Below, one piece after another: positions 1,668-55,884 of a stretch of 64,000 nucleotides of DNA. The DNA is from Artemia franciscana. Lineage: Eukaryota > Arthropoda > Branchiopoda > Anostraca > Artemiidae. The notes below the pieces were generated by a model. That model was given only the letters and a program-made list of their open reading frames with translations. It searched no databases and was not told the origin of the DNA. The position numbers were made by a program, and so were the translations under genes. Each line of letters starts with the position of its first letter. The first letter of the stretch is position 1. Where the stretch lies: positions 48,052,857 to 48,116,856 of the forward strand of contig NC_088867.1 of the NCBI RefSeq assembly GCF_032884065.1. Direction: 5' to 3'.

Positions 1668-2688
1668 AAAAGTAAAATTTTAACTACTTTACGACAAACT
1701 GGGAAAAATATGTTTTTAAACAAAAACAGCAGCTAATTCTTATAACAGAGAAGTCAATATACCATTGCACCCTCTCAAAAATCGAATTTTCAAACCAGTA
1801 ACATCTCTTTGGTGCTCCAAGAAGTGATTTTTGTTTATAAATGGGAAAAGAGAAGCTTTCAACTTCTAAATGGGATATGGAGCACATAAGGATTGTATTG
1901 CCGCTTGTGTGCATAATCTGTAGAATATAGAAAAAATCATTATTCTGCAAAATTGATTTGTTTTCTGCAAAACAAAATATTTTGTAACTGTGGGTTATAC
2001 CAAGTGTGGTAATTTCTATAATCATCCAGTTCATGTATCTTAATGTGACCTCTGACATAGTTGTTTGTATGTTGCAAAAAATTTCTTCCTTATTCGAATT
2101 TCTGATTTGTTGATAGAACTCTTTAGAGATTAAGCAACATAATATAGAAGGTCAAATCAATTCATTTGGATGTTGTGGTCATGGTAATGCAATTCAACCA
2201 TGTACACAGGAGGCTCCAAATGAATCACCTTTGTAGGCTACTCTTTCTATGGGAAAACATAGGATTCCACAGTGAACACATACAACCATAAATGGTCTGA
2301 ATTACTTTTGATTAACACTTGCATAGCTCACAGCAGCTTTTTGGTTTTGTAGTGGGGTTTTCACCAGTTTGCTGGTGTTGAAAATAACAATGGCACTATT
2401 GTCTTAACACATTATTTATTTCCACTTTACTTTCTGCTTGATTTGTTCTGATTCTCACAGTTGCTTTTCTCATAACAAAATTCTTTGTTCTTAACTTTCA
2501 TTGATGCTTTTTGATATTTGCCTTGGCGTGAATGCAGAAAAATTGCATACCCAACAGCAGCCTTGATGCTTATTGGTCACTATAAATGCAAAAAGAACAA
2601 CTAAATGTCCTGGGAGAATCATCTTGATTGGCAGCTAGGCTGTAAAATGTATTCTGAAGCTGTGACATTAGTTTTTCCATAATGTAAT
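1668..2688. other. no supported gene
   Basis: AT-rich DNA between the HINE-like tail and the LINE tail. A 124-codon open frame lies on the minus strand at 1684-2058, but it has no recognisable domain, no splice context and strongly biased AT-rich composition, so I do not call it. Confidence 0.5.
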
Positions 2689-2690
2689 AC

Positions 2691-3306
2691 TACTACTACT
2701 ACTAACTACTAATAACTCACTGCAGCACCAAGCCGCCTGAGGCCAACACAGCTACGCACGCTCCTCCTCCAACCTAATCTATTTAAAGCCTCCCTCTTTA
2801 CACCCTCCCAGGAAGTTCCCATTTCCTTTAAATCCTTATTTATGACATCCTCCCAACCCAGACAAGGACGACCTGCTTTCCGTGTAGCCCCAGACGGTTG
2901 GCCAAAAAGGACAATCTTCGGTAATCTGTCATCCTTCATCCGTAGAACGTGGCCTAGCCATCTCAACCTTTCTTTCATTATAGCCCCAGAAAGCGGGATT
3001 GAACCACACTTTTCGTACAACCTACTGTTTGAAATACGGTCAGTCAGCCGGGTACCCAGAACAATCCGTAGGCAATTTCTCTGGAAAACATCTAGTAAAT
3101 TTTCATCTGCTTTTCGGAGTGTCCATGCTTCAGAGCCATATTTGACCACTGTCATCACTGTAGCTTCCAATATTCTAATCTTGGTTTGTAGGCTTATCTT
3201 TCTATTCTTCCAAACTTTTTTTAACTGTGAAAAAACACCCTGAACTTTAGCTATTCTACTTTTAACATCTTCACTGCTCCTACCATCTTTACTAATAATA
3301 CTAATA
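2691..3306 (-). pseudogene. 5'-truncated RTE-like LINE, C-terminal end of the reverse-transcriptase ORF
   Basis: About 198 codons read openly on the minus strand from 'SIISKDG' to 'LRRLGAAVSY' and a stop at 2709. The segment matches, at 80-90% or better by eye, the C-terminal part of the LINE at 33.6-34.2 kb, including 'ILEATVMTVVKYGSEAW', 'RIVLGTRLTDRISNS' and 'RLRWLGHVLRMKDDRLPK'. This is the thumb and C-terminal region of a non-LTR retrotransposon polyprotein; the catalytic RT core and endonuclease are missing. The frame continues upstream to 3548 but the LINE similarity stops near 3306, the 5' truncation point typical of abortive target-primed reverse transcription. The 3' end runs almost directly into a (TAG)n tail (plus strand 2691-2715, 'actactactacta'), as in RTE-clade elements with short 3' UTRs and simple-repeat tails. 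It is open but cannot encode a working enzyme. Confidence 0.85.
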
Positions 3307-4660
3307 ATAATGTAATAACCAAAAGAAAAACAAGTAGTGCTAGATTGTAGTAACCTATGGCTGTTTAAGCTACTAATCTTCCACATTTCAGCTTCCCCAT
3401 TACCTGTTCTAACTATAGGTACACCTTCAGAGCTACCAGTCCTTTTCAGATTCTTATTAGGTTTTATGACAAATAACCAGTTTTGAGACAATTTGGCTAT
3501 TTGATGCAGACTTGGCCAAATACTAACTTGCAGTTGAAGAGAAATCAAATAAGTAAAAACCTATCAATGTCCATGACTTAAAATAAATTTTTCATAGTGA
3601 AATTAAACCTCGATAAAGTATTATTTTGAACAAGTTTTATAAAGCAGTAGCATGAGAGCTTCTGCTGTAGCCTATACTTGAACTTTCAAGCCCAACTGCC
3701 AAAACTTTAATTCCCATATATCTTAAACAAAACGTTTCGAAAATTTCAGCCCTCTATATCTCTCAAATATTAAGATATAGTACCTATCTATAAATTTAAT
3801 CTGACCTTTATCATAAGTAGTCTATTGAGTTGATGTTTCAATTTAAATTCACAGAAGATATGTATTTTTTTTCAATAATACTTCAATTTATTTTAATCAA
3901 TGTATTTTTTCAATAGTTTGGCTGTATGCCACTAAGAGACATCAAAAGAGAACAGCAGAAACAAAAACAGCTCTTTTTTGTCTTACAGTTACTTTTATGG
4001 AGTTTTGATTACTTTTGAGTCTAAATTAAATTTAATTAATGCCACATACAATTTTTTACAAGGGGAATATATTTGAAAATATTAGTTTGCATAAAAATAA
4101 TATTCTTAAGCAAAAGCAAAAATATCAAATTTTCACTAGCAAATGAAGAAAAAATCAATAAAACTTTTAACAACAAGGATTTCTGGCAAAAGGGTCAATT
4201 TCGTTATTCTTTGGACATTCAAATATAATGAACTTCAAATTAATATAGTAAAAGTAAAAGAAAATCCGAAATAGCCTACTTTCCCTCTTGAGATAAAACT
4301 AGTACAAACTTGTCTTTATGAAGTTTCTGAAACCTTTGGAAGGGAGGTGTGGAAGAAGTACAAATAGAAGCTTGAAAACACTTTCTATGAAGATATTTTA
4401 GGTTCTGAATTCATTTGAAAATCCTTAAATTACCTGCATTAGACCAACAACTTGGTAAGACCTGAGAATTAGAGTTATTAAGACAGAAGCATTTTAAGAG
4501 AACAATGCTTAGTTTACAACAGGCAAAATAATTGAAGCTATACATTTTGACAACAGTTACACTATGCTTTGCCATCCCTTCTCCCTAATATTCCCATATA
4601 CAGCCCAAACTATTCATTTCCCATGAGATTTTCTATTTCTTGATTTTGTAACAGATAGTT
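3307..4660. other. AT-rich DNA without supported gene
   Basis: No open frame with recognisable features and no clear repeat boundary seen. Composition is like the flanking AT-rich repeats. Confidence 0.5.
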
Positions 4661-4664
4661 CAGT

Positions 4665-5560
4665 TTATGGGCAAAGAGGTTTAAACAAGAGTGATTACCT
4701 TAAAGAAAATAAGCAAATGCTTAAGAGATGAACATTGGCATCCTGGTATATTCTGGCCACTGAAAATAATTTAAATAGGTCTCACTTATAATAGGTCAAA
4801 TCTTGAGAAAAGTTGTTCACAGCTTCAATATTTTGGAAATAATTTCATTTGATTGAGGTCATATCTACAAGCATATTATGAAGAATTAATTAAAAATACT
4901 TTCCAAAATACTTACCAAAATTATGGAATAAGAGGTATAAACATGAGTGATGCTAATACCTAAAAAGAAAATATGAAAATTTTTAAGAGATGTCAACTGT
5001 GTGTTTTTTTTTCTCTTTTTTTTTGTTTTTTTTTATAATTTGCTCATTATGATTCATTACCTCTTGATACTGTAACTACAACAAAATAGAATTATAATCA
5101 AATAATATGTTTTAAACAAATATTTTAGTGTTTTTCTAGAGCCAAAAGTAGCTTACCAGTAAAACAACCATTAACCATTTTGAAAGAACATAAAAAGGAT
5201 ATCAAGTGGTATGTTCACCTAAATTAAGATATTTAAGATAATTGTATAGCTAACAAAAAATACAGTTAGAATACTTGTGACAATAAGCCAAAATTTCAAA
5301 GTCAAACACAAAGAAAAATCTGATTAGAATATAAATGGCAGTAAGAATTACAAGCTACAGTGAGAATAAGAGCTTGTCAAAAGTATTTTGGAAAATTGGC
5401 ATTCTGGTAGATTCTGGCTATCAAAAATGATCTAAATAAGTCACAAGTTTGAGAAAATTTGTTCAGAGCTTCAATTTTTTGGAAATAAATTCATATTATT
5501 GAGGTCATATTTATGAGCATATTCCAAAAAATTGATAAAAATACTTTCCAAAAAGAAGTT
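4665..5560 (+). repeat. local degenerate duplication
   Basis: The block around 4665-4735 ('aagaggtttaaacaagagtg') recurs at 4925-5000 ('aagaggtataaacatgagtg'), about 260 bp apart. The block 4740-4915 ('ggcatcctggtatattctgg' ... 'aaatactttcc') recurs at 5397-5553 ('ggcattctggtagattctgg' ... 'aaatactttcc'). These are diverged direct repeats with no coding potential. Confidence 0.7.
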
Positions 5561-5944
5561 TTTCAAAGAATAGTACATATTAAACTTTAGATCAGAAGAA
5601 ATATACAATAGCTTAAACTCAAAAGATCCAGAAATTAAATAAATAATCAGGGCCAAAAAATACAAAAGATAGAATTATAAATGCATAAATAAATCTTAAA
5701 ACAAACACAGTTTCAATTGAATATGAATATTAAACTTAAGATGAACAAAAATATTTTTCTATTGAGGCATAAACAAAACCAAAAACAAACAGAAATACAA
5801 TAGAGACTAATATAAATGAATAAATAAATCTCAAAACAAGTGAAACCTATCCTTTCAGCTCTATAAATCAGGCTTTACTAAAGGAAATTTTCCTATGTTT
5901 GATAACTCTACAGATTCTATAAATTTAGCTTCAGTAAAAATAAG

Positions 5945-6511
5945 GGTGAAATTCTAGTTTAGCTATTTTTATGCTTTTGGAAAGGGGTTAAGTTAGGAAA
6001 ATAAAGCCTGCCGTAATGAATTCAGGATAAAAAACATACTCTGATATGGTATTGCTAAGCTTCTATATTAAACCTCTCCTGATTTTTAAGGGTTAGAAAT
6101 TTGCCTAATTGACAGGTATATGGCTAGTGAAATTTTTAGCTAAATAAATCTGTACCTTAGTTTTTAGTTATCAATCTCTTTTTCACTGGCTTTAGTGAAT
6201 GGTTTTTAGTGACTAGTTTAGAGAAATACTATTCCTGTTATCTTGAATAGAAATTTAAGCCATATTGTACAGTTTTTTTCAAAACTTAGGATGCATTTGT
6301 AGATCTTTGAAACCTCATAAATTGCAATAAACCAAAGTTGTGAAGCAAAATAGTTTTGTTGTAGATTGCATAAATGGGAGATTTATTTTGCAAGATTTCA
6401 CTTTTATAATGCAAAGATATTTAAAGGTCACTACCCTCTAGAGAAGAAGTTTTTTTCCCTAACTTAAACCCCTTACAAGATTGCAAAACATAGCTAAACT
6501 AGGATTTTACC
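5945..6511 (+). mobile_element. long-TIR MITE ('MITE-L' family), copy 1
   Basis: The ends are inverted copies of each other: the left reads 'gaaattctagtttagct' and the right reads 'agctaaactaggatttta'. Just inside lie 'ggggttaagttaggaaaata' and, inverted, 'ccctaacttaaacccc'. The interior ('aaacctcataaattgcaata' and neighbours) recurs in at least four other places here: about 40.15-40.53, 41.84-42.39, 45.87-46.59 (opposite strand) and 48.26-48.88 kb (opposite strand). No protein is encoded. About 570 bp with terminal inverted repeats of about 100-160 bp indicates a non-autonomous DNA transposon; superfamily unknown. Confidence 0.7.
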
Positions 6512-8720
6512 AAAAAATTACCTAGTGAAGCTAATCTACAGCTTAATCTAAAAGGGGATTCTGTGACAGACCCTGGGGTTGTGAGTGCTCTGGCCTAAGC
6601 CAGTAAGCAACATGGTGTTTTTTTTTTATAAAAAAAAAAACAGCACAAATGTGTTTAATAGAAATAAAACTGGGTAAAATTTTGACAGTTCATGCAACTG
6701 ACTTACTAATAAAGAAAATATAGCCTACTACTTGATGCCTTTTTTTAAGTTCTTTACAAATACAACAATGACTTCTATTGCAACTTCTTATTTAAGCACT
6801 TTTTGAGCTCTTAAAAATGATGAATTTTTGATTAAAGTGTGAGTTATCCCTTGTGTTCAACAACAAAGAATAGCCTATTATGTTTTCTCAGCACCATCTT
6901 TTCTTGGTTATTTTTGAAAAATAATACTGTTTTCTTAGTGCTAGAATTATTTTTATTTGGTTTAGGTTAGATCAAACAGTGCTTAAATTTAAATTTGTGG
7001 TAGAAGCATTACAAACTGTCATAAATTAACCAAAAATTGTAGTCTTGGCAGAATTAACAATAATTCAGTTTGAATTTGCCCACATTCATATTGAATTAGT
7101 CTAGGCTATACTCCTCTGTCTTTTTAAAGGTGGAAAAAACAAAGTATTCCTAAAGAGCCAAGACCCCAAATCCCAAGGGAGCTGAAAACTAACATGAATC
7201 TTGGTTTTTCAAATTCCAGCCAAAAATGTTTCCATTCATGTACAATTGAAATAGTCAAACTAAGAGGTGAACTTTCTTAAGGATAATAAATTAATTTGAG
7301 TTTGAAGCATAGGCATAACATTAATGTCTTTCAGAAACAAGTCAGAAACATTTAACAAAACTTCACTTTGAAAATGTCCTAACTGTCTCGGTTTTAATTT
7401 CATTTCTTCTGTGAACGACCAGTGACTTCTCTTGATGCACGACTAGCACGAGTGCTTTCTAGCTCAAATCTCTTACCATTCAAAAATTTCGAAAAACCTG
7501 TATGTTTCTAAGCATTTTATTTCTGTGATGCTATACCTCCAGAAAGCTGGACCCAAGAAAATCGGAATCACTGATAATAATTCTATAAGCCTATAAATAT
7601 GCTCAGAAAAAGAAGCACCAGACTCAACTTCTACTTTTGAAAATAAGCAAAATAGCCTTACTTGGCGCCCGGAATATAAATAGTGAGTCAGAAGAAGCAA
7701 TTGATATTTCAAGTTATATTCCAAAGTGTTATATTCCAAGCTAGTTCTAGTAACATTCGCTACTAGTTGCAGTTACAACGGCAATGGCAGCCACAAAAGT
7801 TTCAAGTAAAACCATAACCCATTTCTAAAATACTGTTGACATGGCATTTTGACAGTTTTTCTCCACATAATATCTTTTGATTCACTTCAATGTTCTCCTA
7901 AATACTCTTAAAGTTACCATTTTAGACCCAACAAGAATAAAAAATTCCCCCTTTTCTATTTTTGAATCTTAAATATAAACAATTGGCAAATTGAATAATT
8001 TAATTTAGGTCCCTATTCAAAACTTGCATTCAATGAGCTAAAATAAACATAAAGTTATCCATTAAAATACAAAATGTTTCTAAGGAATTTCAAAGTTTTT
8101 AATTGAATGGTCAAGGATCCCAGTCAACTTTTCCCCTAAATATTTTCTAAGTTTGCAGCTGTTCCTATTTGAAATCCTTTTTAATTGAATTACATTCTCT
8201 TTTACAAATTAATTTTGTATGTGGACATGCTTGAGGGGCTGTTTTCCACGTATTTTGATTCCGGGGAAGATATTTTCACGGGGGGTGGGGGGGACATTCT
8301 AAAGTGATTGATTAGAAGTTAAAGTCCTTCTCAAATAAAAGTATGCTAAGGAGAATTTTTCACGCTGAATCGTCCGAAGGAAATTTGAGGGGGGAGGCTT
8401 TAATCAAGGATGGAACTGTGTGGGAGAATTTGATAGAAGTAGGGGTCTTGCGCCTTAGATTAAAAGCAATTTCCAATGAGGAGTTTCCTTTGAAGGGGAA
8501 AGATATATTTCATGAGGGATGAGCCAGATTTACCAGCATTATTTGAAGAACGATCAGAAATTAAATAAATGAAAACCGAGTTTTTTTCAACTGAAAGCAT
8601 GGAGCAACATTAAAACTCAAAGTGGACAGATATTATTCCGCATATTAAAGGTTGCTCCCTCTTCAATACCTTGCTTTTTACGGATACAGTTTGATAGTTT
8701 GTCCCAAAGTTTGACGGAAC
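6108..8720 (+). repeat. segment duplicated at 40.15-41.0 and 51.88-53.5 kb (uninterrupted copy)
   Basis: Collinear with 40148-40996 and then 51879-53530. Examples are 'cttacaagattgcaaaacat' against 'tttacaagattgcaaagcat', 'accccaaatcccaa' shared, and 'agcctataaatatgctcaga' against 'aagcctatatactcaga'. This copy continues smoothly through about 7372-7385 ('acttcactttgaaaatgtcc'), exactly where the other copy is split by 10.9 kb of extra DNA. No convincing gene lies within it; the minus ORF at 7473-7739 is AT-rich and featureless. Confidence 0.8.
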
Positions 8721-40147: not shown

Positions 40148-40996
40148 GTTGACAGGTTTATGACTATTAAAATCTGACAGAACAAAGTTTTACCTTAATT
40201 TTTCACTCTCTTTTTCTCTGGTTTTATTTCTAAAAATACCATTCCTGTTATTTGAATAGAATTTTAAGCAATATTGTGGTTTTTTTTTATAAATTTAGGA
40301 TATGTCTTTGAAGGTCTTTGAAAGCTCATAAATTAGGATAAACCAAAGTTGTAAAGCAAAATACAGTTTTGTTCTATCTTGTATAAACAGGAGATTTATT
40401 TTGTAAGATTTTGCTTTTATAATAAAAATATGTTTAAGGGTCACTGCCCTCTAGAGGGAGAAGTTTTGTTTTCCTACCTTAAACCCTTTACAAGATTGCA
40501 AAGCATAGCTAAACTAGAATTTTACCAAAAGAAGATTATCAAGAGAAGCTAACCCACAGCTTAACCTAAGAGGGGAATCGGTGACAGGCCCTGGGATTGT
40601 GAGCACTCTGGCCTAATGCAGTCAGCAAAATGGCATTTTTTTAATATTTAAAAAAATATACAGATTTGTTGGCTCAATTAGTAATAATTCAGTGTAAATT
40701 AGCCCACATTCATATTCAACTAGCCTAGGCTATATTCCTCTATCTTATCAAAGGTGGAAAAAATAACACGTCCCTGACTAGCCTAGACCCCAAATCCCAA
40801 ATGAAATGAAAATTAACATGAATCTTGGCTTTTCAAATTCCATCCTAAAATATTTTCATTAATATACATAGTAATAGCCCAACTAAGAGGTGAACTTACC
40901 TTTAGAGTCAGAAATCAATTAGAGATTGAAACATAGGCCTAACATTCATTTCTGTCAAAACCAGTCAGAGGTATTTAATAGAACTTCACTTCTGAA
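40148..40996 (+). repeat. left part of the duplicated segment (homologous to about 6108-7378)
   Basis: Collinear with 6108-7378, including a MITE-L remnant (right end at about 40526, 'agctaaactagaattttacc'), 'gggattgtgagcactctggc', 'tcatattcaactagcctagg' and 'aggcctaacattcat'. Homology stops abruptly at 40996 and resumes at 51879. Confidence 0.8.
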
Positions 40997-41837
40997 GGGT
41001 GTGTTCCAAGGACTTACTGAAGTAACCGAATGGTTACTATTTCCGTTCCTAGCGGGAAAATGGTTACTGCCCAACCCGCTGGGAACGAGAATAGTTACTG
41101 CCGGCAGTAACCGCAGTAAGTGATTTTCTTACATTGCTCAAAAGAATGGTTAGCGCAGTAAGTACATAAGGCCTTTTTTCGCGTCAACCAAAGAGACTGT
41201 TTGAGCTCAACCACTCGGTGTGGTTGAGCTCAACCGCTGTTTTTGCGTGAAACAGTGACAAACCAGGTTGTCATGAAAAGTGATTTTGCGTGAAACAATT
41301 GACTGGTTGAACTCTAATTTAACCAGAACTGTCATTGTTTTTAACCGTAGGGTTCTACCATTCATAATTGTTGGTTGATCTTTTCAGGCGTAGATTTCGA
41401 AAAGAAGAATTCGTAGGCTATAAATAAGTCTATATAAAATAAGAATTATAAGCTGACAAATAGAATTCTAGCCACGCAAAAGTAAGGTTTAATTTTGTTT
41501 TTTTTTTCGTATTAGGGCTATTTGGATAAATGTTGGGTTATATCCTGCAATTTTATTCACATAGGCCTTAATACAGGAAGTCAAGAGTTTGAATATGCAT
41601 TTGAAAACTTATGTAGATACTTGGAAATCTTTGTTTCATCCTTTTGATGCCCTAGACTTGACCTTAGCTTGGTAATTTGGCTTCAGAGATAAAACCTTGA
41701 TGAAGCAAGACCCTAGTGGTTATAAAGCATTGTTAATCCAATTACTATTCTTACTAGATGCTTCAAGATGTGTTGCATCTTTGTCAGAACTCTTTACATT
41801 TCAGCCTTACCCTATAGGGCCATGGATAAATTTTCAG

Positions 41838-42385
41838 GTCAAACTCTAGTTTGGCTACTGTTTGCTATCTTAGAAATGGGTTAAGTCAGGAAAATAGAAC
41901 TTCCAGTAATGAATCCAAAGCAAAAAATATGTAAAATTCTAGTTTAGCTAATTTTCATTATCTTGGGAAGGGAATAGGTTACAAGAATGAAACTCAGTAA
42001 TTAATCCAGGGTCAAAAACACTCTGGGAAGGTTCTGCCAGGCTTCTATGTCAACCCTTTTCTGATTTCTAAGTCTTAGATAATTGCTTACTCAAAAGGTC
42101 TATACCTATACTATTGAAATTTTGACAAAACAAGATTTACCTTAATTTTTAATTATCAGTTTCTTTTTCTCTGGCTTTAGCTCTTAAAATGCAATTCCTT
42201 TTATTTGAGTAGCATTTTAAGCCATATCAATATTTTTTTTTTCAAAATTTAGGAAATGTCTTTGCATATCTTTAAAACCTTATAAAGTGGATTGAGGAAA
42301 GCTGTGAAACAGTTTCTTTGTACTCCATGTAAGCAGACCTTCCCAGAACATACTTTAGCCTTTAGACCCATCCCTGAAAGTTTTT
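41838..42385 (+). mobile_element. MITE-L, rearranged copy
   Basis: Two nested left ends ('aaactctagtttggctactg' and 'aaattctagtttagctaatt'), then the MITE-L interior ('tgcatatctttaaaacctta') and an inverted right-end block 'ttagcctttagacccatccc'. The plus ORF at 42292-42591 crosses this boundary and is judged spurious. Confidence 0.6.
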
Positions 42386-42897
42386 TTTTCAATCTCACCC
42401 CCTGGTGCTCTTTTACACATTGTATAAATTGTGAAGAAATGCCTGCCCCCTTGCTAAAAGTCTTAGAAGTATCTTATATCAAAATACACCTGATACAGTT
42501 TAATTTTTTAGAGATGACACAGAATAGCATTAAAGCTGAGTATTTGCTTTGCAAGAAATGTGTCCCTTCTGTTGTAAAGCATTTTGGATAGACACTAATC
42601 TAACCATGGACATATTGCTGTTGCAAATGGTTTTGCTTAAAATGGTTTGGAAAACAAATTGCAAATGTAAATTTGCTTTTTTATCATTATTTAAGACTAG
42701 AATATCACAAAGCTATGCAATCACATTGCTTGTTGTATCTTAAGTAAATACAATCTCTGATGGAGTTTTGTTGATACCTGTCTTAAAATTAATTTGTCTA
42801 AATAAAATATATTGTTTATGGGACAGTAGAGAAAAGCAACAACCATGAATTGAGTTTTTTTCAATATTTCTTTTTTCAAATAATAGTTCTCTGGTCA

Positions 42898-42980
42898 CAT
42901 TTGTGTTCCTTGCTAAGTTGTTGGCACTCTGGTTTGGGAATCCTTTGTCCAAGGGGTACGGGTTTAATTCCTGGCATTGC
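42898..42980 (+). repeat. tRNA-derived SINE head, copy 1
   Basis: Box-A-like 'ttgctaagttgttgg' and box-B-like 'gggtttaattcc', spaced as in a tRNA with a variable arm. A conserved body ('tggagttttgttgatacctg' at 42762; 'tggagctttgttgacacctg' at 43052) repeats about 290 bp apart. SINE-like rather than a functional tRNA gene: the acceptor stem does not pair. Confidence 0.55.
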
Positions 42981-43188
42981 TAGTGTATTGGGTTTTTACC
43001 AGCTAAGTATTCACCATGCTAGTTTGCATCTTAAGTAAAGCAATCCCTGCTGGAGCTTTGTTGACACCTGCCTTACAATAACTTGTCTAAGTAAAATACA
43101 ATGTGTATTGAAGATTAGTGAAAATGGCTGTAAATCCATCTTGTTTTTTTTTCAATATTTTTTTTTAATAGTTGTTCTACTCTGGTTG

Positions 43189-43270
43189 TAATAATGTTCT
43201 TGGCTAAGTGGAAAGCACTCTTAGTGAGAAATCCTTCGTCCATGGGGTACAGGTTTGATTCTTAGTATTG
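43189..43270 (+). repeat. tRNA-derived SINE head, copy 2
   Basis: 'cttggctaagtggaaagcac' (box-A-like) and 'caggtttgattc' (box-B-like), with the same internal 'aatccttcgtccatggggta' segment as copy 1. Confidence 0.55.
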
Positions 43271-45864
43271 CCTGTTTATTTGTTTTAAATGGGGGTCAGT
43301 GATGTTAGACAGATCTAAACCAGCTCTAAATAGGCAAATGGAGAAATATGCAAAAGGTAAGCAGGGAGGGTGTACAAAAGCACAAGATTTCTGGCCCCCA
43401 GCCCTTAATTGCAATTCTTGGCCAAAGGGTCACAAAGTGGAAATTAGCACTGCCAGTTTAGACCTTGATGTGTCAGTGCTGCCATACTTACTTACTTGCA
43501 TATTGGTGTTGAGTTTGCCCACATTTTATCTTCATTACTATCTAAAATCATTTAGACATTCAGCAAACTGTCTCAAACCACAATTAGTATTGAATAGTTT
43601 TTGGGCCTTACTGACTTTCCCTTTATAGCAAAGGTTTATTGTTGTGTATAATGTAGATATTTTAAAGTAATCAATCATTAAGAAGTCCCTTTTAGTTTTA
43701 TCAAGTTTTTGAGTAATAAACCTTTTTAATTACCTTAAAATATTTATTCAGGTCCTTTACTATTGGCTGCCCTTTATATTACAATAATGATTGAAATATA
43801 TTGTGGCAACTAAAAATTTGGATAATCCAACCTATTTTACCATCTTAAGGTTGTTTACAAAGGTGTATGAAATATTTAAGTACTGACTTAGCTACAGAAA
43901 ACCTCTAGATATAATAAAATGTAAGCAAGATGGCTCTTACTTTGACCATATCTATGGAAGCACTAATGAGAGAGTGGGTTATTTGATGCATTTGTAGGAT
44001 TGAGTGAGATGAGAAATGAAGTGTAGGCTTGATGAGAGATGGCTGGTGAATGTGATGAGGGATGAATGTTTTGTAAGATTTTAAAATTTTGGACAATGTC
44101 TCATGTTGACAGTAGAGTGCAGAAGTAAAATTTGGTAATTTTTTTTCTTTGTTTCTGTTATGTTAGACAATATTGAATATTCTAAAGTGAAGTTTCTTTT
44201 TTGTTTGGAATTGTGATGGCCCTAGGGCTTTAGTGCAATACAAATTACTAATGTTTATTCACTTTCTTTAAACAAACACAAGGTCTATGTCTCCTAGCTT
44301 TAACAAAGTCAAATGTAATTTTAAGACCAGGGATTTCAAATTAGGTCAAATGAACTTCTGGTAAAAATGAGCAATTTATGAAACATCTAGATTAAAAAAA
44401 AGTCTTATAGACAACAAAGAAGACAATTGAATAAAGAAAAGTACCTTATATCATAATTGTTGTGCACCCTTAAGATAGAAATGAACAAAGCTTCAATTAA
44501 GATTCTGTTTTGTTTAAACAGACAGAAGGGACAAACCTCCAAGCTTTGACAAATACAATCTCACTTTGTGGCTCCTATCTTTTCAAAGGGGACTTTCTTT
44601 GGATTTTTTCTATCCAACTAAAACTGAAAAGGACAGCATGATATACAAGTGACTTTCCAATTACCCTACATAGCAAGAGAAAATCATTAAGTTAGGCTAT
44701 GCTTTATCTCAATCCCCCTCCCAATGTGCAGAAATATGGCTCAAATTTCATATTTTCAATGCATTTAACCTCCTGTCACCTGTTTTTCTAGTTATTGTTT
44801 GTCACATTTGTTTAATTTACAGCTACATGGGATGAAGTTAGAGAGACAGATTGACAAAACAAATGGAAAATAGGAAATTTCAGCAATACATTTTTATATT
44901 GGGAGGATTGAGGGGTAAAGTAGAGCAAAGTTGAATATAAAATGTGTTACCAGCTATTATTCTAAAAATTATGAAGCATGAATTTTTTTTTTATTATGTT
45001 TCTTTCTCTTCAGGTCCTTCTCTAGGGCTTTACCAAATCAAACATTCTATGCCCAGAAAAATTAGCAACAAGGTATAGTCTATATACAAAGGCTTATGTT
45101 ATTTAACTATGAATATGGAATTTATATGGCAATCAGGAACTGGATACAGGCGAAAGCAAGTAAAAAAGAAAGAAAAAACTTCCCTAGTTAGCTCAGGAGA
45201 CTTTTAATAGATTACTCTTCAGATAATTGCCTATGATACATAATTTAAATATTTACCCCTGTACAGTAGGGCATTAAAACAATCTATCACAATGTAAGAT
45301 ACAATATATTTAGATATGATGCTGATTTACAAATTCCAGGATTCTTTGTTGTAGTTTTCATAATTTTGTTGATAAAGTTTTATATATTCATCATATTTTA
45401 TTTTATGTCATTAACATTAGCCAAACTAAACTTCTCAATAGAACTTGAATGTGGTGGCTATAATGCACAAGTACTGCAAAAATCTTACAACACATTATGT
45501 GTTAACTGTTCAGTGAGAAAAAAACTATTTTCCTAGTTTAGCTTAATTTGTTATATTTTTGTGCTTATCAGAAATATTTTATTAATTTTAGGCAGCTGTC
45601 CCCCCTCAAAAAATTCTTAAACATTTGCTGGTTTATACTTAACTAGTATTCTACTGAAAACAAAAATTAATATATATTTTGTATTGAAGAAATATAAAGT
45701 CCTTTGGATTATTTTTTATTAAGATTAAGCAGTTTGCTACTTTCTTTTGTTAGGCTAAGCCTGTAATAGTGCTTTATTGTGAAGAGCCAAAATTTGTAGG
45801 GATTGCAAAGGCTAGCCTGAACAATATGTTATTACAAATTATTAGGTTAAACTTCTGTTTGGTA

Positions 45865-46590
45865 AAATTCTATTTTAGATAAATTTGTATTATCTTGAAA
45901 AAGGTTTAGGTTAGGAAAATGAAACTTTTAGGGATGGGTCTAGAGACTAAACTATATCATGGGAAAGTATTTTGGAGCATCTAACTCTATTCTTTCTCTC
46001 TCTTAAAAACGTTTGCCTTAAATTACCTTAAATCACATTGTCTAATGAAATAAGTATTAAATCCCATAGAATTGCTGGTTAGTGATGATGACAGTTGGAA
46101 ATCTCAATATTTGGTCCACACCCTTAGAAATGCTTGTGTTATAAAAGTGAAACCCTTGCAAAATAAATCTTCTACTTAAATGACAAGAAAAAAGCGTTTT
46201 TAGTGTCCTAACTTTGCTCAATTTCAATTTATGAAGTTTCCAAGATTTGGAAACTTTCAGGATATACATTTCCCTATATTTAAATACGAAACACTGATAT
46301 GGCTTAAAATTCTACTCAAATAACAAGAATTGCATTTTCAGAGCTAAAACCAGAGAAACAGAAACTGCTAGCTGAAAATTAAGGTAAGATGTTGTTTTAC
46401 CAAAATTTTAATAGTTACAGACCAGTCCAGTATGCAAAATTCCAAGATTTAAAAACAGAAGAGGGTAATCACATAAGCTTAGCAATAGCTTCTCAGAGTA
46501 TGTTTTTAGCTATGGATTAATCACTGAAAGTTTCATTCACCTAACATAACCCCAATCAAAGATAGCAAAAAGTAGCTAAACTGGAATTTG
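45865..46590 (-). mobile_element. MITE-L, inverted copy
   Basis: Ends 'aaattctattttagataaat' and 'tagctaaactggaatttgac'. The interior is the reverse complement of copy 1 ('tttgctcaatttcaatttat', 'agaattgcattttcagagct'). Confidence 0.7.
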
Positions 46591-46994
46591 ACTGGAAATT
46601 TAATCTATAGCCTGGTAGGCTAGTAGAATTCCAAATCAAAACAAAAAGAAGTCAAACTAGAATTTTATCCTCTGTTTAGGGTAGCTCAACAAAGCTAAAG
46701 TCTTATCATTTAGGACTTTTTAATAGATAAATTGCTTTTACAGTATGAATACAACATTTTCCAATATATTACCTGAACAATTTAACCCAAGATTCCACTA
46801 ATTCAGACCCTTCCTTTCTCTCCAAATATACCAGAGAGTATGCTAGATCATTTTTCAATTCTCTCTGACCTCAAACTAATGTGAAATATGTCAAATCCGA
46901 AGGAAATTAAGCCAGTGCTAAATCATTTAATTATAATAGAATGACACTCTTAACACTATACGGATATTTTATGTTTGAAATTTTTTGCCCAAAC

Positions 46995-47724
46995 CGACAA
47001 GTAAAAAGTGTTTTCGCGAACCAGTTTTGTTTGAGCTCAACCATATGTAATTTTTTCCGTTTTTGCGTTAAACATACAAGCTGGTTAAACCAAAGCTGTC
47101 ATTGGTTAAACCAGCTGGTCTTCTTCTTCTTATTCAGCAGACGGGCTTTTCAGTTGATACTATTTAGCCCTTTTCCTTTTGGCTCACTCTGTGAGATCGA
47201 CAGAGCTATGGAGCTGGTTTGTCTTGTATGATTTGTATCTGCTCAGATTTCTTGAAGTATATCTTTTGATACCAGCAGTTGAATTATAAGAGAGTATATA
47301 TTGATCTCTGTGCTCTGCGGGAGAGTATGGTCAGCAAGACTCTTGGCTGTTGGTGGAATTTTGTGGTGTTTGAAGCATTCTAACATTTTACGTCGCAGGG
47401 TATACTGTGCAGACGTCAGCATATTACATTCAAATAGGCAGTGATCTATTGTTTCATTCTTAAGATTACATGACCTGCAAAGGGGGGACGAGGGAACTTC
47501 GCCACTTGAATTAGGAATCTGATATGAAAATGCCTGAAAATTTAGCCCATTTGAACCTGACCGAATCCTATGATAAATCTTGGAAAGGTGCTTACTTGGG
47601 AAAGGTGATGGGGTAGGATTCTTATTAATTATCAGTACCTCTGTAAATCTCCAGCGGTAAATATCTCTAATGGGGATTGGTCTCCCACTGCTTGCCACCC
47701 GCTGGTTGACGCGAAAAAAGGCCT
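46995..47724 (-). pseudogene. LINE C-terminal fragment with zinc-knuckle motif
   Basis: The minus-strand frame is open from just inside 47724 to 47243 (about 160 codons): 'FFRVNQRVASSGRPIPIRDI', 'HRIRSGSNGLNFQAFSYQIP' and then the CCHC motif 'CRSCNLKNETIDHCLFEC' (C-x2-C-x8-H-x4-C), followed by 'LRRKMLECF'. This cysteine-histidine motif at the C-terminus is typical of non-LTR retrotransposons whose ORF2 ends after an RNase H-like domain. An immediate TAG precedes the frame. RT and endonuclease are absent. The downstream noncoding part (47130-46995) contains repeated 'ggtttaacca' and 'ggttgagctcaaac'. Its relatives lie at 41169-41355. Unrelated to the RTE-like copies at 2.7 and 32 kb. Confidence 0.65.
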
Positions 47725-48261
47725 ATAATTCATCTTCTTCAACAAAATTCTCATTCAACAAAAAATAAATAAGGAATATCAAGTTATTTGCTTCGAAGAA
47801 GGTGGGACGGTGATTTTGTAAAAGAAAGAGAGATCTGAGCCAGGTTAGTAAATCACCATAGTTTGGGATCAACATTAAAGGACACCCTGAGTAGTAGGCT
47901 ATCTATTAGCAAGAAGGTTAAATCAATGAAAAACTTATTATTTAATTTAAAGATTTCCATGTTTTCTGGCATATCCAGACATAATTGGTACCTTAAATTG
48001 CCATTTGGAATCATTCTAAGGATTGACTTCTTTCAGGTAACATTGTGAGGCTCCATTAAATTGCCACATGGTAGCATTCTAAGCATTGACTCCTTTTAGG
48101 CTCTGTAAACAGGCCTAGGTGAAGTATTACAGATAAGCTGAGGATTTATGGACTGCTAAATCATTATTCTGAGACTGGCTTTAATCCTATTGAAGAAGTA
48201 GGCTAGGGTAGACTATTCAGAGTCTATTCCAAAGGATGGTAATTTTATCCATTAAAATTCT

Positions 48262-48880
48262 AGTTGATTGACTCCTTGCTATCACTGAAAGGGGTTAGGT
48301 TAGAAAAATGGTACGTTCAGGAATGGGTCTATGGGCTAAATTATGTCCTGGGAAGGGATTTCAAAGTACACATCTCTGCTCATTCTTGCTCTAGAGGGCC
48401 CTGACCTTTGATGACCTTCAAAAATAGGCCATGTGTGCTATAAAAGTAAAACCTTACAAAATAGATCTTCTGTTGAAATGAAGTACAACAAAATTGTTCT
48501 CAGTTTCACAACTTTGCTCAATCCCAATTTATAAGGTTTTAAAGATATGCAAATACATTTCCTAAATTTTGAAAAAAAAAGTTGATATGGCTCAAAATTT
48601 TACTCAAATAACAGGAATTGAATTTTCAGAACTAAAGGCTGAGAAAAGCAAATGGTACCTGAAAATTAAGGTAAAATGTTGTTTTGTCAAAATTTCAGTA
48701 GGTATAGACCTGTCATGGAGTCAAATTTCAGGGCTCTCTAGAGGGAGAAGAAGTGAAGGTGGGTACTTTAAAATACCTTACCAGGATATACTTTAGCCTG
48801 TAGACCCATCCCTGAAAGTTTCATTTTCCTAACCTAACTTCTTTCTGAGATAGCAAGAAGTAACTCAACTAGAATTTTAC
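48262..48880 (-). mobile_element. MITE-L, best-preserved copy
   Basis: Terminal inverted repeats of about 150 bp. Left: 'attctagttgattgactcct' then 'ggggttaggttagaaaaatg'. Right (inverted): 'attctagttgagttacttct' then 'aagttaggttaggaaaatga'. The shared internal 'gggccctgacctttg' / 'gagccctgaaatttg' marks the inner edge. No ORF of substance. Confidence 0.8.
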
Positions 48881-49416
48881 CTTTTATCTGTCTGGTAAAA
48901 AAAAAATCCTTCAAATTTTAGATATGCTCTAATTCTACAGGAGCAAAGAAAAATGCTTTTTAAAATTGCCATCTAGAGATTAAATACCAGCTAAATTGCC
49001 TGAGTAAAGCAAACCTAGGGAGCCAAAAAACTTGAAATATGCTTAACTGCTTCTTCAACAGTTGCAAATGATCTGACAAAGAGTTAAGTACAGAATTTAA
49101 GCCAGAAGGGCCTTTTATGTTTTTTCTATTCTCACCAGAATGAAACACAAATCCAATGTTGACTTGCACAAAAAACTCCAGGTAAGTTGTAATAATTGGT
49201 CCTTTAGCCTGATGTAGCTGCTATTTGTTGCTTTGAGTGCATTGCTTACAATGGGAGCTTAAAGTTGTCATGACAAGCTGCATGGTTGTGTGTACAACCC
49301 CTTAGGCAATTCTCTCTTCTTTATATGCTTATTGTTGTTTAAGAATGATCAAGCTTCACAGTAATCTCCTTTCATGACTTACAGTTTAAAATTTGTTAAT
49401 GCTTCATTGATTGCAG

Positions 49417-49587
49417 GAGAGCTAGAAAGATGGACATTAGAACAAGCTATGAATTTGGAAATTGACATAAGAGGAATACCATTTTCTGATTTATACAAGC
49501 AGGCTGCACCTGCTGAGAGTCAGCAGACTATGGAAGAAACAACCCAAGATAAAGTCACAAAGAAGTTTTGTTCTGGGAAAGATAAAG
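49417..49587 (+). CDS. candidate internal coding exon, unknown protein
   Basis: Strong acceptor ('cattgattgcag', ending 49416) and a near-consensus donor ('ataaag|gtaagt', 49587/49588) enclose 171 nt with an open frame in phase 1-1. The peptide begins 'ELERWTLEQAMNLEIDIRGI', continues 'PFSDLYKQAAPAESQQTMEE' and ends with a Lys-rich 'KFCSGKDKG'. Composition is hydrophilic and protein-like and the splice sites are the best in the window. I do not recognise a domain. It lies inside the 10.9-kb foldback insertion, so it may be part of that element's own spliced gene or a captured host exon. No matching exon was found in the opposite arm. Confidence 0.45.
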
Positions 49588-51270
49588 GTAAGTTAGTTAT
49601 GGTTTCAGATCATAGCTGCAGAGAAGAGAAGATTGATGCCAGATGCACATTTTTTTTGTCCTGTTCATATTAGCTTGGAAAACCATTAGTCACATTAGCT
49701 GGGAAATGTGCAACAGACAAAAATGTGACCAGCAGTCACATTAACTGGGAAATGAGCAACAGACGAAATTTCATTTTGTCTGTTGCTCATTTCTTGTCAA
49801 TACTACTGAGGGGTCACAGATAAGCACTAGAGTCCTCATTGATCAATAATATGTGCTTGTATATATATAGCCTGTTGCTACTTATTTTTCTCTGGGAATA
49901 AGATGTTTGATGTGGCATAAACCAAAGGAAGGACCTGTAGACCTAGAGAAACATATGTTAAAAAAACCGATTTTTTATAATTGCACAATAATTATAGCTT
50001 ACACAATTTTACATGCAGTCCTGCTCTACTTTACTCCCAGCCCTCCTAATATAGAAATATATAGCTGAAGTTACATGTTTCCCATTGATTCTGCCAATCT
50101 ATCTCTCAACCTTTAACTCCCTGTTAATTGAAGCAACTGTGACAAAGCAAGAATGGGGGAAGAGGTAACAGGTGACAGAATACATTGGAATTACATAATT
50201 TTGGCTATATATTTGCACATTAGATAGGTTGGAGGTAAATTATAGTACAGAGATGCATGCTTTTCCGTTTGGTATGTAGGCTAAGTAGAAGGTCACTTGT
50301 ACCTGATGCTGTCCCTGTTGTTTTTAGTTGGATGGGAAACATCCAAAGAAAGTTTCCTTTGAAAAGGAAAGGTGAGATTGCCCAAAAGGTAGATTGAATT
50401 TTTCAAAGCTTGGAGGTTTTCCCCTTCAGTCTGTTTAAAGGAAAATGGATTCATAATTGAAGCTATGTTCATTTCAATCTTAAGGGTGACCTATATTTGT
50501 GACAATTCATTAAACGGCTGTAAAGGGATATTTTGTTTATTCATTTGTCTTCTTTGTTTTCTAACAGTTTTTTTTAATCTTTAAATTGATATCCCTTTCT
50601 TACAAATTATTTATTGGTACCAAGGTCCACTTGCAAGTTTTCACCTACTTTGTAATCCCTGGTCTTGCGACTGCATTTACATTTACTGAAGCTAGAAAAC
50701 ATAGAACTCCTATCTATTTAAAGAAAATCAATGGATATAAGTAGGTTTTATTATATTTAAGCCCTAGGGCCATGGCAATTAAAAACAAAATAAAGGAGAT
50801 TAACTTTAAAATACTTGACATTAAATAAGCATAATAGTCACAAAGAAAAACAAATAACAAAATTATAGTTCTGTGCTCAGTTGCCAACCTGAGCAACTGT
50901 CATAAATTTTTAAATCTTGCAGAACATTCACCCCCATTACATTCACAAGCCATCTCTCATGACCCACACTCTTGTCCATACATCCACATTTCAGGGAAAT
51001 GGAAGGACCATATTACTGGTATTCTGCATTTCTAATTATATTTAATGGGTTTGAAAGAAAATTTCTATGGCTAAGTTAGTAGGGGAATGAAGTACCTGGT
51101 GGTCCTTTAGCCAGGTAGTACAATAGGAAGCTAGGGACCAGCCAGCCTATGCTCTTGCATGCCTGTCCTCCTTATTGTCCCTAGATTTCTATCTGTACTC
51201 ATTTACAGTTGGGCCAATTCTAGCTGAGGTTAGTTATATCACCAACCCCTATCCAAAACCAAATAAACTG

Positions 51271-51356
51271 GCAATGCCAGGAATTAAACCTGTACCCCTT
51301 GGACACAGCATTCCGACCCAGAGCGCCTACCACTTAGCAAGGAACACAAATTTGAC
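51271..51356 (-). repeat. tRNA-derived SINE head, copy 3 (inverted)
   Basis: Reverse complement reads 'ttgctaagtggtaggcgctc' (good box A) and 'caggtttaattcctggcatt' (box B). The conserved body continues on the minus-strand upstream side to about 51560. It forms part of the inverted arm of the 10.9-kb element. Confidence 0.6.
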
Positions 51357-51878
51357 CAGATAACAACAATTATTTGAAGAAAAATAGAATATTGAAAAAA
51401 AATGCTATAGTTGTCCCACTACTATCCTGTAAATGCTATAGGCCCATTTTATTTAGACAAATCAATTTGAGACAGGTATCAACAAAACTTCATCAGGGAT
51501 TGTATTTGCTTAAGACACAATCAAGCTATGTGAATGCTTAGCTTTGTGATATTCTAGTCTTGAAATAATAAAAAAGAGAAAATTTATATGTTCTATTTAT
51601 TTTCACCAGCTCATTTGAGCAAAATCATTGTGACAGCCAAATGCCCATGGTTAGCTTAGAACCTCTCTAAATGCTCTGAAACAGAAGGAATTAAAAGAAA
51701 ATTATACTAATCAGCATTAAACTGTCCCTTAAATTTAAACACATGTATTTAATTTCGAAAATGACGCTACTGCTATTCAGCTTACTGTGCCGTTCCCACT
51801 TGCTCTACTGCAGTTAAAAATGGGCAGTTACCGCGCAGTAACTGCAGTTACTGAAAAACCATTAGCTGGAATACACTC

Positions 51879-53530
51879 GAAAATATCAGGTGTCTCAATT
51901 TAAATTTAGTTTCTTCTGTAAATGATGGTGACTTCTCTTGCTGCATGAGTGCTGCCTAGCATCAAATCTCTTCTCAGAAAATTTCGAAAAGACTGTATAT
52001 TTCTAAGCATGTTTTTCTATGATGCTACCTCTACGGAAAGCCGGGCCTAAATAAATTAGAATCACTAACTATAATTCTATAAGCCTATATACTCAGAAAA
52101 AGATGTACCTGACTCAACATCTACTTTTGAAAACCAGCATGATAGCTTCACTTGGTGCCCGGACTATAAATAAAGTGTTACGGTGAACCATTGAAGAGTC
52201 TAATAAAAGTATACAGCAATAGATTTTATTAACTAATCAAAATAGAAAAATATAAGCCTATATACTCAGAAAAAGATGTACCTGACTCAACATCTACTTT
52301 TGAAAACAAGCATGATAGCTTCACTTGGTGCCCGGACTATAAATAAAGTGTTACGGTGAACCATTGAAGAGTCTAATAAAAGTATACAGCAATAGATTTT
52401 ATTAACTAATCAAAATAGAAAAATATGAATGATAATAGAAAGACGGAAGAAAATAGTCATTGAAATATTCACCTAATATCGTTAACTGCTATAAAGATCC
52501 TAAAAATATGGATTTAATACAACCTGGATGTACATTGTGTCTTTTAAGTACGTAGAACACCTATTTCGGTATTCTCTGAAAGTTTCAACTTAAGGCCCCT
52601 ATCCATTCCCGATGTGAATATATTGGCTCCCATTCATACCCTTTTGAAACTTGGACGCACAAAATGTATATTGCTTTAGTGCAACATCCATTGCATCATC
52701 CTGTGATAGTTTCAACGCTATACCCTTAGCATTTTCTGAGTTATTGCAAGTTTTATGTTTTGACCATTTGAGTTAATATAGTATTTTTTACTGAGTTAGA
52801 CAGTCCCCTCAAAGCTCTTTGAGATTTCCAACTTAATGACCTTAACCATTTTAAAATATCTTTGATAAGCCTTTTTACCAACAGGTGCTCATCTATGCAT
52901 TTTTGATTATTTTCAAAAGTAGTGATAGCAGCAGTTGCAGTTGCAATTAGAGGCAGATGAAGTTACATGTAAATAAAGTCACAAGTGGTTCTGGTTAAAA
53001 GCAGATACAGTTGCAAATACTTGTAGTCATAAATTGTCATTACTTGTAGTCACAAGCAGTCAAAGTTAAAGAGACCAGCATATTCAGTGGCAGATACAAG
53101 AAATATTAATACAAATAAAGACAAACAAATTTCAAGTTGAGCTTATAGATTCAACTCTGAGGAAGGACTGCAAGTTATGAATTTTGCCCATTGTTTACAT
53201 ATAGTATTGGTTATTGGGAAGTATACAGACATTTTCAGGAGGGGTTTTTTCTGGTGGCGGGGGTCATGGGAGGAGGTTACGTAATAAGATCTTTCCACGA
53301 AGGAGTTTATCATGGGGGAAGAGAATTTTCATGAAGTGGGAGCTACATTTCCAGTATCATTTAAAAAAACAAATGAGAAATTAAATAAAAAAAAAACAAT
53401 AAGAAATTAAATAAAAAAAGTTTTTTCAATTGAAAGTAAGGAACAACATTAAAACTTAAAACAAACAAAAATTATTACGTATATGAGGGGGTTCTTACCC
53501 TCCTCAATACCTCGCTGTTTACTCAAAAGT
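51879..53530 (+). repeat. right part of the duplicated segment (homologous to about 7379-8720)
   Basis: Resumes the collinearity broken at 40996: 'aaatttagtttcttctgtaa' matches 'atttcatttcttctgtgaac', then 'tttcgaaaagactgtat', 'cataattctataagcctata'-type and 'ggtgcccggactataaataa' follow in the same order as 7390-7690. The later 'caattgaaagtaaggaacaa' matches 'caactgaaagcatggagcaa' at 8588. Confidence 0.75.
52081..52426 (+). repeat. 173-bp tandem duplication, nearly perfect
   Basis: 52081-52253 and 52254-52426 are identical except for 'ccagcatg' against 'caagcatg'. Each copy starts 'aagcctatatactcag' and ends 'aatagaaaaatat'. Confidence 0.95.
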
Positions 53531-54222: not shown

Positions 54223-55884
54223 AAAGAGCTAAGACCTCATATGACACTTGTGACAAGGTTTGAAGAGCCAAGAGCTCATATGGTATGAGTTCTAGCAAAT
54301 TTCTAAGAATAAATAGATTGCTTTGAAACGAAAATCAGAGGCTTAATGCCGGTCGGGATTTAAAATAAGAGCTATGAGTCACGAGTTCCTTCTAAATATC
54401 AAAACTCATTAAGATTGGATCACCCACTCGCAAGTTAAAAATACATCAGTTTTTCTATTTTTTTCTCTCTCTGCAGTCCCCTTCCAGGTGTTCGAATCGG
54501 GGAAAACGACTTTATCAAGTCAATTTGTACAGATCCCTGACACGCCTACCAATTTTCATCGTCCTAGCACGTCCAGAAGCACCAAACTCGCCAAAGCACT
54601 GAACCCCACCATCTAACTCCTCCAAAGAGAGTGGATCCAGTCCGATAACGTCAGTCACGTATCTACGACATTTATAAGCATTTTCCAAGATTTCTAGTTT
54701 CCCCCTCCAGCTCCCCCCAACGTCAAAAGATCTGGTTGGGATTTGAAATAAGAGCTCTGAGACATAAGTTCCTTCTAAATATCAAATTTCATTACGATCC
54801 GGTCACTTGTTCTTAAGTTAAAAATACCTCAATTTTTCTAACTTTTCCAAATTAGCAACCCCCAGCTCCCCCAAAGAGAACAGATTCGTACCAATTATAT
54901 CAATCTCGTATCTATAACTTGTGCTTATTCTTCCCATCAAGTTTCATTCCGATATCTCCAATCTAAGCGTTTTCAAAGATTTCCGGTTTCCAAGATTCTG
55001 TTTCCCCCCACCGATCCTCTATGTCCCCGGATCCAACTCAAATTGGAGATGAAGCATCTGAGACATAAGACTCTTCTATATATAGAGTTTCATTGAGATC
55101 CGATCACCCATTCGTAAGATACCTCGATGTCACGTTTTCCAAGAATTTGGGCATCCCCCTCCAACTCCTTTCAATGTCACCGGATCTGGTCGGGATTTAA
55201 TATGAGATTTTAAAGCACAGGATCCTTCTAGATATCCAATTTCAATAAAATCTGATCACCGGTTCGTAAGTTACAAGAAACTCATTTTTTCCGGATTACT
55301 CCCCCCCCCCAACTCCACCAAAGAGAGGGAATCCGGTCCGGTTAAGTCGAGATAAAAAATAAAAGATCAGAGTTTCGAGGTCCTTCTAAATATGGAATTT
55401 CATTAAGATACGATCATTCTTTCACAAGTTAAAAATACCTCATTTTTTCTAATTTCTAGAATTAACCTGTGCTAATTTTTCCCACTAAGTTTCATCCCGG
55501 TCCCTCCACTCTAAGCGTTTCCCAAGATTTTAGGTTCCCCCCTCAATTTCCCCCAATGTCACCGGATCCAGTCGGGATTTAAAATAAGAGCTCTGAGACA
55601 TGATATCCTTCCAAATTTCAATTTTCATTAAGATCCCATCACCCTTTCGTAAGTTAAAAATACTTCCTTTTTTCTATTTTTCCGAATTAACCGTCCGCCC
55701 ACTCTCCCCCAGATGGTGAAATCGGGAAAACGACTATTCCTAATTTGATGGTCCCTGATACGCCTGTCAAGTTTCGTCGACCTGCCTGGAAGTGCCTGAA
55801 GTAGCAAAACCAGGACAGACAGACAGACCGACAGAATTTGCGATCGTTATATGTCACTTGGTTAATACCAAGTGCCATAAAAAC
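54223..55884 (+). mobile_element. HINE/Helentron-like tandem-array element, copy D
   Basis: Complete at both ends. 5': 'agagctaagacctcatatga', then 'aagagctcatatggtatgag'. 3': 'tgatacgcctgtcaagtttc', then hairpin CACTTGG-TTAATA-CCAAGTG and 'ccataaaaac'. About five degenerate internal units. It ends about 20 bp before the ankyrin relic and probably truncated it. Confidence 0.7.

Follow-up and report, generated by a model that had tools for sequence, protein, structure and literature searches.

Nested DNA transposons behind an apparent giant foldback element in Artemia franciscana, and the probable Harbinger lineage of the outer one

What kind of element accounts for 10.88 kb of extra DNA that splits one of two related segments on contig C5 of the brine shrimp Artemia franciscana? 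The insert lies in a stretch of 64,000 nucleotides (C5:48052857-48116856; hereafter the window), and an initial annotation made from the letters alone read it as a giant foldback (FB/Galileo-like) or hAT-like transposon. We now identify it as a nest: a transposon with terminal inverted repeats (TIR), here called A, was entered by a second element, B, which contains the tail of a long interspersed nuclear element (LINE), and a hairpin repeat, C, is found in A and in B. Element A most likely represents a non-autonomous family of the Harbinger lineage (PHIS). The genome searched was the A. franciscana assembly (1,270,528,402 bases in 6468 contigs). Names such as L039 or L053 denote numbered genomic stretches read for comparison, and C1, C5 and the like denote contigs.

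Exact ends, an empty site and a family of copies

Local alignments confirm that two segments of the window are collinear and that the second is split by the insert: positions 40234-40663 match 6224-6643 with 82% identity, 40669-40996 match 7045-7372 with 81%, and 51891-52172 match 7384-7682 with 77%. Aligned independently, the left side stops at 40996/7372 and the right side restarts at 51878/7369, and the break in homology is therefore abrupt, the point on which the initial annotation had asked for a check. The boundaries 40997-51878 are exact, and the paralogue is the empty site, at 7370-7372. The flank and insert read ...CTTCTGAA[GGG...CTC]GAAAATA... (insert in square brackets) and the empty copy ...CTTTGAAAATG. 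The target-site duplication (TSD) is thus the 3-bp GAA, and not the decayed 8-bp duplication that had been suggested. The corresponding features are:

7370..7372, plus strand: unduplicated target, a single GAA, in the paralogous empty site (7045-7690)
40994..40996, plus strand: left target duplication GAA of A
40997..51878, plus strand: element A, whole insertion, bounded by TIR and TSD in 19 copies and by the empty site (A proper is 40997-41168 plus 47725-51878, the middle being the nested B)
40997..41009, plus strand: left TIR of A, family form GGGTGTGTTCCAG, the window copy ending ...CCAA
40997..41168, plus strand: left terminal module of A with GTTACTGC/GCAGTAAC-type motifs
51866..51878, minus strand: right TIR of A, decayed (CTGGAATACACTC)
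51879..51881, plus strand: right target duplication GAA of A

The host segment 7045-7690 belongs to a low-copy family with 26 matches in the genome (20 of 20 candidates scored) and a cluster on C5. Besides the segment itself, five matches run unbroken across the target site, C5:48019256 with 90% identity and C2:55594273, C535, C616 and C3:20043673 with 65-68%, which bears out the earlier claim of an empty site. The match at C5:47910122 ends 3 bp beyond the target in the search, and its sequence (L053), read by eye, continues through an unsplit TTTGAAAAT; that at C5:48134811 starts 5 bp to the right of the target (333-646). Local copies of the segment occupy about 47.91-48.15 Mb of C5 (48019256, 48059901, 48134811 and 47910122). 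At C5:47910122, another A copy stands about 100 bp beyond the equivalent site, with a different TSD (ATA).

Other copies sharing both ends, which the initial annotation had proposed to look for, do exist. A left-end query (40990-41200) gave 44 matches (best 40 of 428 candidates scored) and a query with the 3' end of A gave 40 (best 40 of 803 candidates scored). As the former included about 31 bp of B, loci with B in A were favoured in its ranking. Twenty stretches were picked from these lists, some for their closely spaced ends. Sixteen of them hold 18 two-ended copies, making 19 with that of the window; L047, L054, L056 and L057 were dropped since both ends were not present. The family is bounded by GGGTGTGTTCCAG at one end and CTGGAACACACCC at the other, the insert termini GGGTGTGTTCCA and TGGAATACACTC being as first described, and the TIR measures 13 bp in the copy aligned (L046). 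Clusters of GTTACTGC/GCAGTAAC-type motifs, already noticed at both ends of the insert, are part of the family consensus. The exact 13-bp TIR occurs 521 times in the genome, against 5 for a reversed control pattern, which puts the family at roughly 250 copies. In the part listed, from C1 to C4:54.5 Mb, a count by hand gives 23 plus/minus pairs with a spacing of 2.56-2.76 kb.

An exact 3-bp TSD flanks 16 of the 19 copies (15 by script, L045 by eye), and a duplication of 4-9 bp flanks 0 of 19. The values are ATA (4), TAA (4), GAA (2), TCT (2), GTA, AAA, GCG and CAT (1 each). Copies lacking an exact TSD are two tandem ones in L043 (AAA/AAG and AAG/AAA) and that of L048 (TCT/AGA, next to an inverted A end); the right TIR of L049 is irregular. 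The target is directly visible where A sits in known sequence, namely in A (L039) and in B (L045). A hAT-like transposon with a decayed 8-bp duplication had in its favour the similarity of the flanks, which differ by transitions alone, but the 3-bp TSD excludes it, and we give it practically no probability.

Fourteen of the 19 copies are uninterrupted, non-coding and 2.4-2.7 kb long. They diverge from their consensus by 1.0-2.5%, and the window copy by 4.8%. This consensus has 2711 bases, one of them flank, and its longest stop-free frame is 88 aa. Short copies lack the following part of A:

48427..50056, plus strand: segment of A missing from short copies

Positions 48890-50056 are kept by 14 copies beside the window and in part by a further class (best 40 of 1102 candidates scored). 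Hence, with a short form and other copies that retain all or part of this segment, A is a deletion series. The longer copies were considered as autonomous candidates and rejected. The length of L049 is due to a nested retroelement of the long-terminal-repeat type, with integrase domains, and that of L055 to a LINE. In L044, a 6-kb insert (757-6974) is bounded by inverted C arms; one of its frames presumably resembles the end of an IS1595/Merlin-type transposase, and the frame tested has no Pfam match.

In 5 of the 16 stretches, A lies in or next to another A end (L039, L043, L048, L055 and L058), a figure to be taken as a lead and not as a rate given that the choice of stretches favoured close pairs. 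Two A copies meet head to head at L058 4324-4334 with 11 bp between them, and their differing TSDs (TAA and ATA) point to two separate insertions. The A right ends in L020, L022, L023, L024, L026 and L038 have a common flank, ATAAGCAATTATATC, and the same neighbouring repeat, so A has been amplified there as part of a larger unit; this repeat is also seen beside several minus-oriented ends. A literature search for Artemia and Harbinger, judged by title, found no published account of the A family.

Nested elements and the inverted blocks

The middle of the insert is occupied by B and its own insertions:

41166..41168, plus strand: left target duplication ATA of B, by comparison with B-free A copies
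41169..47724, no strand assigned: element B nested in A, with TIR AGGCCTTTTTTCGCGTCAACCA (22 bp, exact inverted)
47725..47727, plus strand: right target duplication ATA of B
47120..47700, minus strand: 5'-truncated LINE tail in B, with a zf-RVT match below cut-off, flanked by GCTGGT at 47114-47119 and 47701-47706
48253..48880, no strand assigned: hairpin repeat C in A, with inverted arms of about 159 bp, 80% complementary
42565..45112, minus strand: B core, an inverted homologue of the A core
49836..51688, plus strand: A core, whose inverted homologue is the B core

Each of the 18 other A copies that were read from end to end lacks B, 41169 joining 47725. Stretches related to repeat C occur within B at 45861-46592 and 41836-42401. 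The B copy of L057 has itself received a second B (TSD TAA) and contains a LINE; the LINE tail at 47120-47700 is absent from it.

B is found in the A left end at five loci (the window, L002/L056, L003/L057, L004 and L005), which raises the question of whether A and B move as a 10.88-kb composite in the lineage of the window. At one locus on C9 (L056), the A left end and B are joined at the same site, with 97.5% identity over 6 kb, as such a composite would have it. However, the C9 sequence past B does not return to A, and the insertions occupy two sites 7 bp apart, with both orientations at one of them, which fits repeated independent insertions and leaves joint movement very improbable.

The inverted blocks of kilobase size seen by the initial annotation are real: 44020-45112 matches 50970-49836 in reverse with 70.7% identity, and 42565-42996 matches 51688-51255 with 79.0%. 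FB/Galileo foldback elements show such inverted blocks on a dot plot, and a giant foldback would be driven in transposition by its long inverted arms. Here, the arms belong to two different elements, being the diverged core common to A and B, and the TIR of the copy aligned is short. This reading is refuted by the B-free A copies of 2.4-2.7 kb with the same ends and TSD, and next to nothing speaks for it any longer. The foldback look is mostly an accident of nesting, produced by two cores that are 70-79% alike in reverse. What stands of the original description is a TIR transposon with its empty site.

Two further repeats lie in the neighbourhood: a unit of about 176 bp is tandemly duplicated with 99.4% identity just right of the insertion (52078-52426), and a repeat of about 115 bp (54349-54463 and some 20 other places in the window) occurs in both orientations with about 72-87% identity.

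The exon and the two-gene Harbinger arrangement

The only coding candidate put forward for the insert, an exon, was a good lead, as it accompanies the Myb gene and the convergent transposase of PIF/Harbinger elements:

49417..49587, plus strand: predicted exon of 57 aa, decaying, probably from the second, Myb/SANT-type gene of an element of the Harbinger lineage

It is flanked by AG and GT, and the acceptor is retained in two distant homologues. Including a second query, an undamaged copy from C13 that raised the weak homologues from three to six, the searches returned 24 places: 18 clear copies and 6 weak homologues (E up to 10). Stops or a frameshift in several of the clear copies mark the exon as a relic, and two of the 18, which are diverged (72-79%), have a different sequence context. 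L074 and L075 show the exon, together with some 100-150 bp of intron on its flanks, in another repeated context and with a common in-frame TAA. Four open reading frames of the window, the exon among them, gave nothing above cut-off in Pfam.

We compared these places with the genome matches of PF13359 (DDE_Tnp_4; 150 listed, best 150 of 263 candidates scored) and PF13837 (Myb_DNA-bind_4; 33 matches, 60 of 60 candidates scored). At four places, C4:54.53M, C14, C19 and C6, a Myb match lies 1.4-2.5 kb downstream of the exon on the same strand, and a convergent DDE_Tnp_4, encoded on the other strand, comes next at a distance of 3.3-4.0 kb from the exon; the whole set spans 3.9-4.7 kb. The Myb matches between exon and DDE, on the exon's strand, are at C4:54536235, C14:642580, C19:22000190 and C6:26435559. 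The exons of C14, C19 and C6 are weak homologues, 3.27-3.45 kb from the DDE; in C14 and C19, the splice acceptor and the initial GGLERW are retained, and the DDE pieces of these two loci give a close alignment to that of C4. The same order is seen at another weak homologue, on C308, where Myb is at C308:66206 and the DDE lies 12.4 kb downstream, with another DDE 6.4 kb upstream. At C16:1.61M, Myb (C16:1611868) lies 1.9 kb behind a diverged exon. On C426, exon and convergent DDE occur twice, 6.9-7.0 kb apart, and none of the 33 Myb_DNA-bind_4 matches falls there. The weak homologues on C2381 and at C4:58.88M have no convergent downstream DDE among the listed matches. The single genome match of PF13873 is not near any exon place.

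The set on C4 bears most directly on A. No Myb match in the genome exceeds the one found here (61.4 bits, in a 212-aa frame with no stop). The DDE of the set, in a stop-free frame of 347 aa, reaches 125 bits against DDE_Tnp_4 and 52 against Plant_tran. The exon is preceded at 3.0 kb by an exact left TIR of A, next to which the subterminal sequence is also of the A type, giving the succession A TIR (54530606), exon (54533592), Myb (54536235) and DDE (54537773).

Many further Myb matches lie about 2 kb from a convergent DDE (e.g., C2:4652162/4654165 and C10:27833421/27835421), and Harbinger elements of Artemia thus generally follow this layout. Judging from these arrangements, the family of the exon's gene is probably the Myb/SANT second gene of two-gene PIF/Harbinger elements. 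On C1, DDE_Tnp_4 (a split match) and Myb (51761527) occur in convergent orientation at 51758904-51761775; they are 3.8-6.7 kb past an A copy of 4.1 kb (TIRs 51750989 and 51755067) and outside its ends.

Classification and history of A

A is a TIR transposon that inserted at GAA and was then hit by B. Taken together, these results make it probable that A is non-autonomous and that its lineage arose by internal deletion from a two-gene PIF/Harbinger-like (PHIS) element. Most likely by cut-and-paste, A entered one member of a group of locally repeated segments, with duplication of GAA; B, carrying the LINE tail, entered A later and duplicated ATA. The ends of A would presumably be bound by the Myb/SANT protein and cut by the DDE_Tnp_4 transposase, both acting in trans, with staggered 3-bp target cuts on integration. 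The subterminal GTTACTGC-type motifs may be binding sites for the Myb partner, and exon and Myb domain may be spliced into one protein. PIF/Harbinger transposition is described as needing two proteins, of which the Myb-type one binds the ends (PMC2836001), which suits the two-gene arrangement.

A resembles PIF/Harbinger (PHIS) elements in its 3-bp TSD, its short TIR with G(N)5GTT, its many non-coding deletion derivatives and its nested insertions, and the exon family resembles them in its two-gene donors with a DDE_Tnp_4 transposase and a Myb/SANT protein. The TIR GGGTGTGTTCCAG also starts with A or G as in PHIS; Pangu TIRs usually start with AG or GG (PMC4482050). In a study of Medicago, G(N)5GTT is a requirement for plant PIF/Harbinger ends (PMC2213677). 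That study also describes MtPH-A6-4 and MtPH-M-2, long composite PIF/Harbinger elements made by nesting like the window insert; these are plant elements with TAA/TTA targets, likened here by description only (PMC2213677).

The targets separate A from the known groups. Those with 3-bp duplications are defined by them (PMC4482050), as TWA for the PIF/Harbinger group proper, ANT for Pangu, CWG for NuwaI and TNA for NuwaII. The last three have the same transposase type, and A matches none of their patterns consistently (ANT 0/16, CWG 0/16, TNA 4/16). As A has the 3-bp TSD and the kind of TIR expected of PHIS, and its exon goes with a Myb and DDE_Tnp_4 pair, but its targets do not fit TWA, ANT, CWG or TNA, we call it PHIS-like, without assignment to a group.

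Several observations weigh against a Harbinger origin of A. Its TSDs are not TWA, with TAA in 4 of 16, TTA in 0 of 16, and a TSD other than TTA/TAA in 12 of 16. Its TIR of 13 bp is one below the at least 14 bp asked for in the Medicago study (PMC2213677). No transposase enclosed by a pair of A TIRs was found. Among 27 places, none near C4:54540000 shows a right A TIR with the expected exact TTT, and other repeat sequence lies between exon and Myb at C4 (L077); hence, the link of A to Harbinger is strong, though incomplete. No Pfam family matches the exon. Among the DDE matches listed, 3 of the 18 clear exon copies have a convergent one within 7 kb downstream (C4 at 4.0 kb and C426 twice) and the other 15 have none; of the three, the two on C426 may stem from duplication of a single stretch. 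The random-placement binomials for exon-DDE pairs, 3e-10 (3 of 6 weak homologues, within 4 kb) and 6e-8 (3 of 18 clear copies, within 7 kb), overstate significance because transposon-rich regions cluster.

Zator-like and CACTA-like elements also make 3-bp target duplications, and A could belong to such a superfamily and have merely captured a Harbinger exon. The exon is indeed missing from the short copies and from a second class of copies, and the TSDs of A are relaxed, unlike those of the described PHIS groups (PMC4482050). On the other hand, the A TIR does not start with CAC, and A left end, exon, Myb and DDE occur together at C4. Zator has been linked to ISAzo13 (PMC5718144), and PF07592 (ISAzo13/Zator-type DDE) gave 0 candidates in the genome, but the control genomes gave none either. 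We regard capture as unlikely and retain the Harbinger lineage for A.

What was an apparent giant foldback is thus resolved into an ordered stack of ordinary insertions, and a young, abundant family of brine-shrimp DNA transposons now has exact ends, TSDs and empty sites. A likely donor of A is indicated at C4:54.53 Mb, where the left end of A is found together with exon, Myb and transposase. More tentatively, and at somewhat less than even chances, A may be the non-autonomous face of an undescribed PHIS group whose transposase takes many 3-bp targets, often in or beside its own family ends, with the A left end serving also as a repeated landing site for the related B. If true, a Harbinger-lineage family with relaxed 3-bp targets would help in asking what governs target choice in PHIS.

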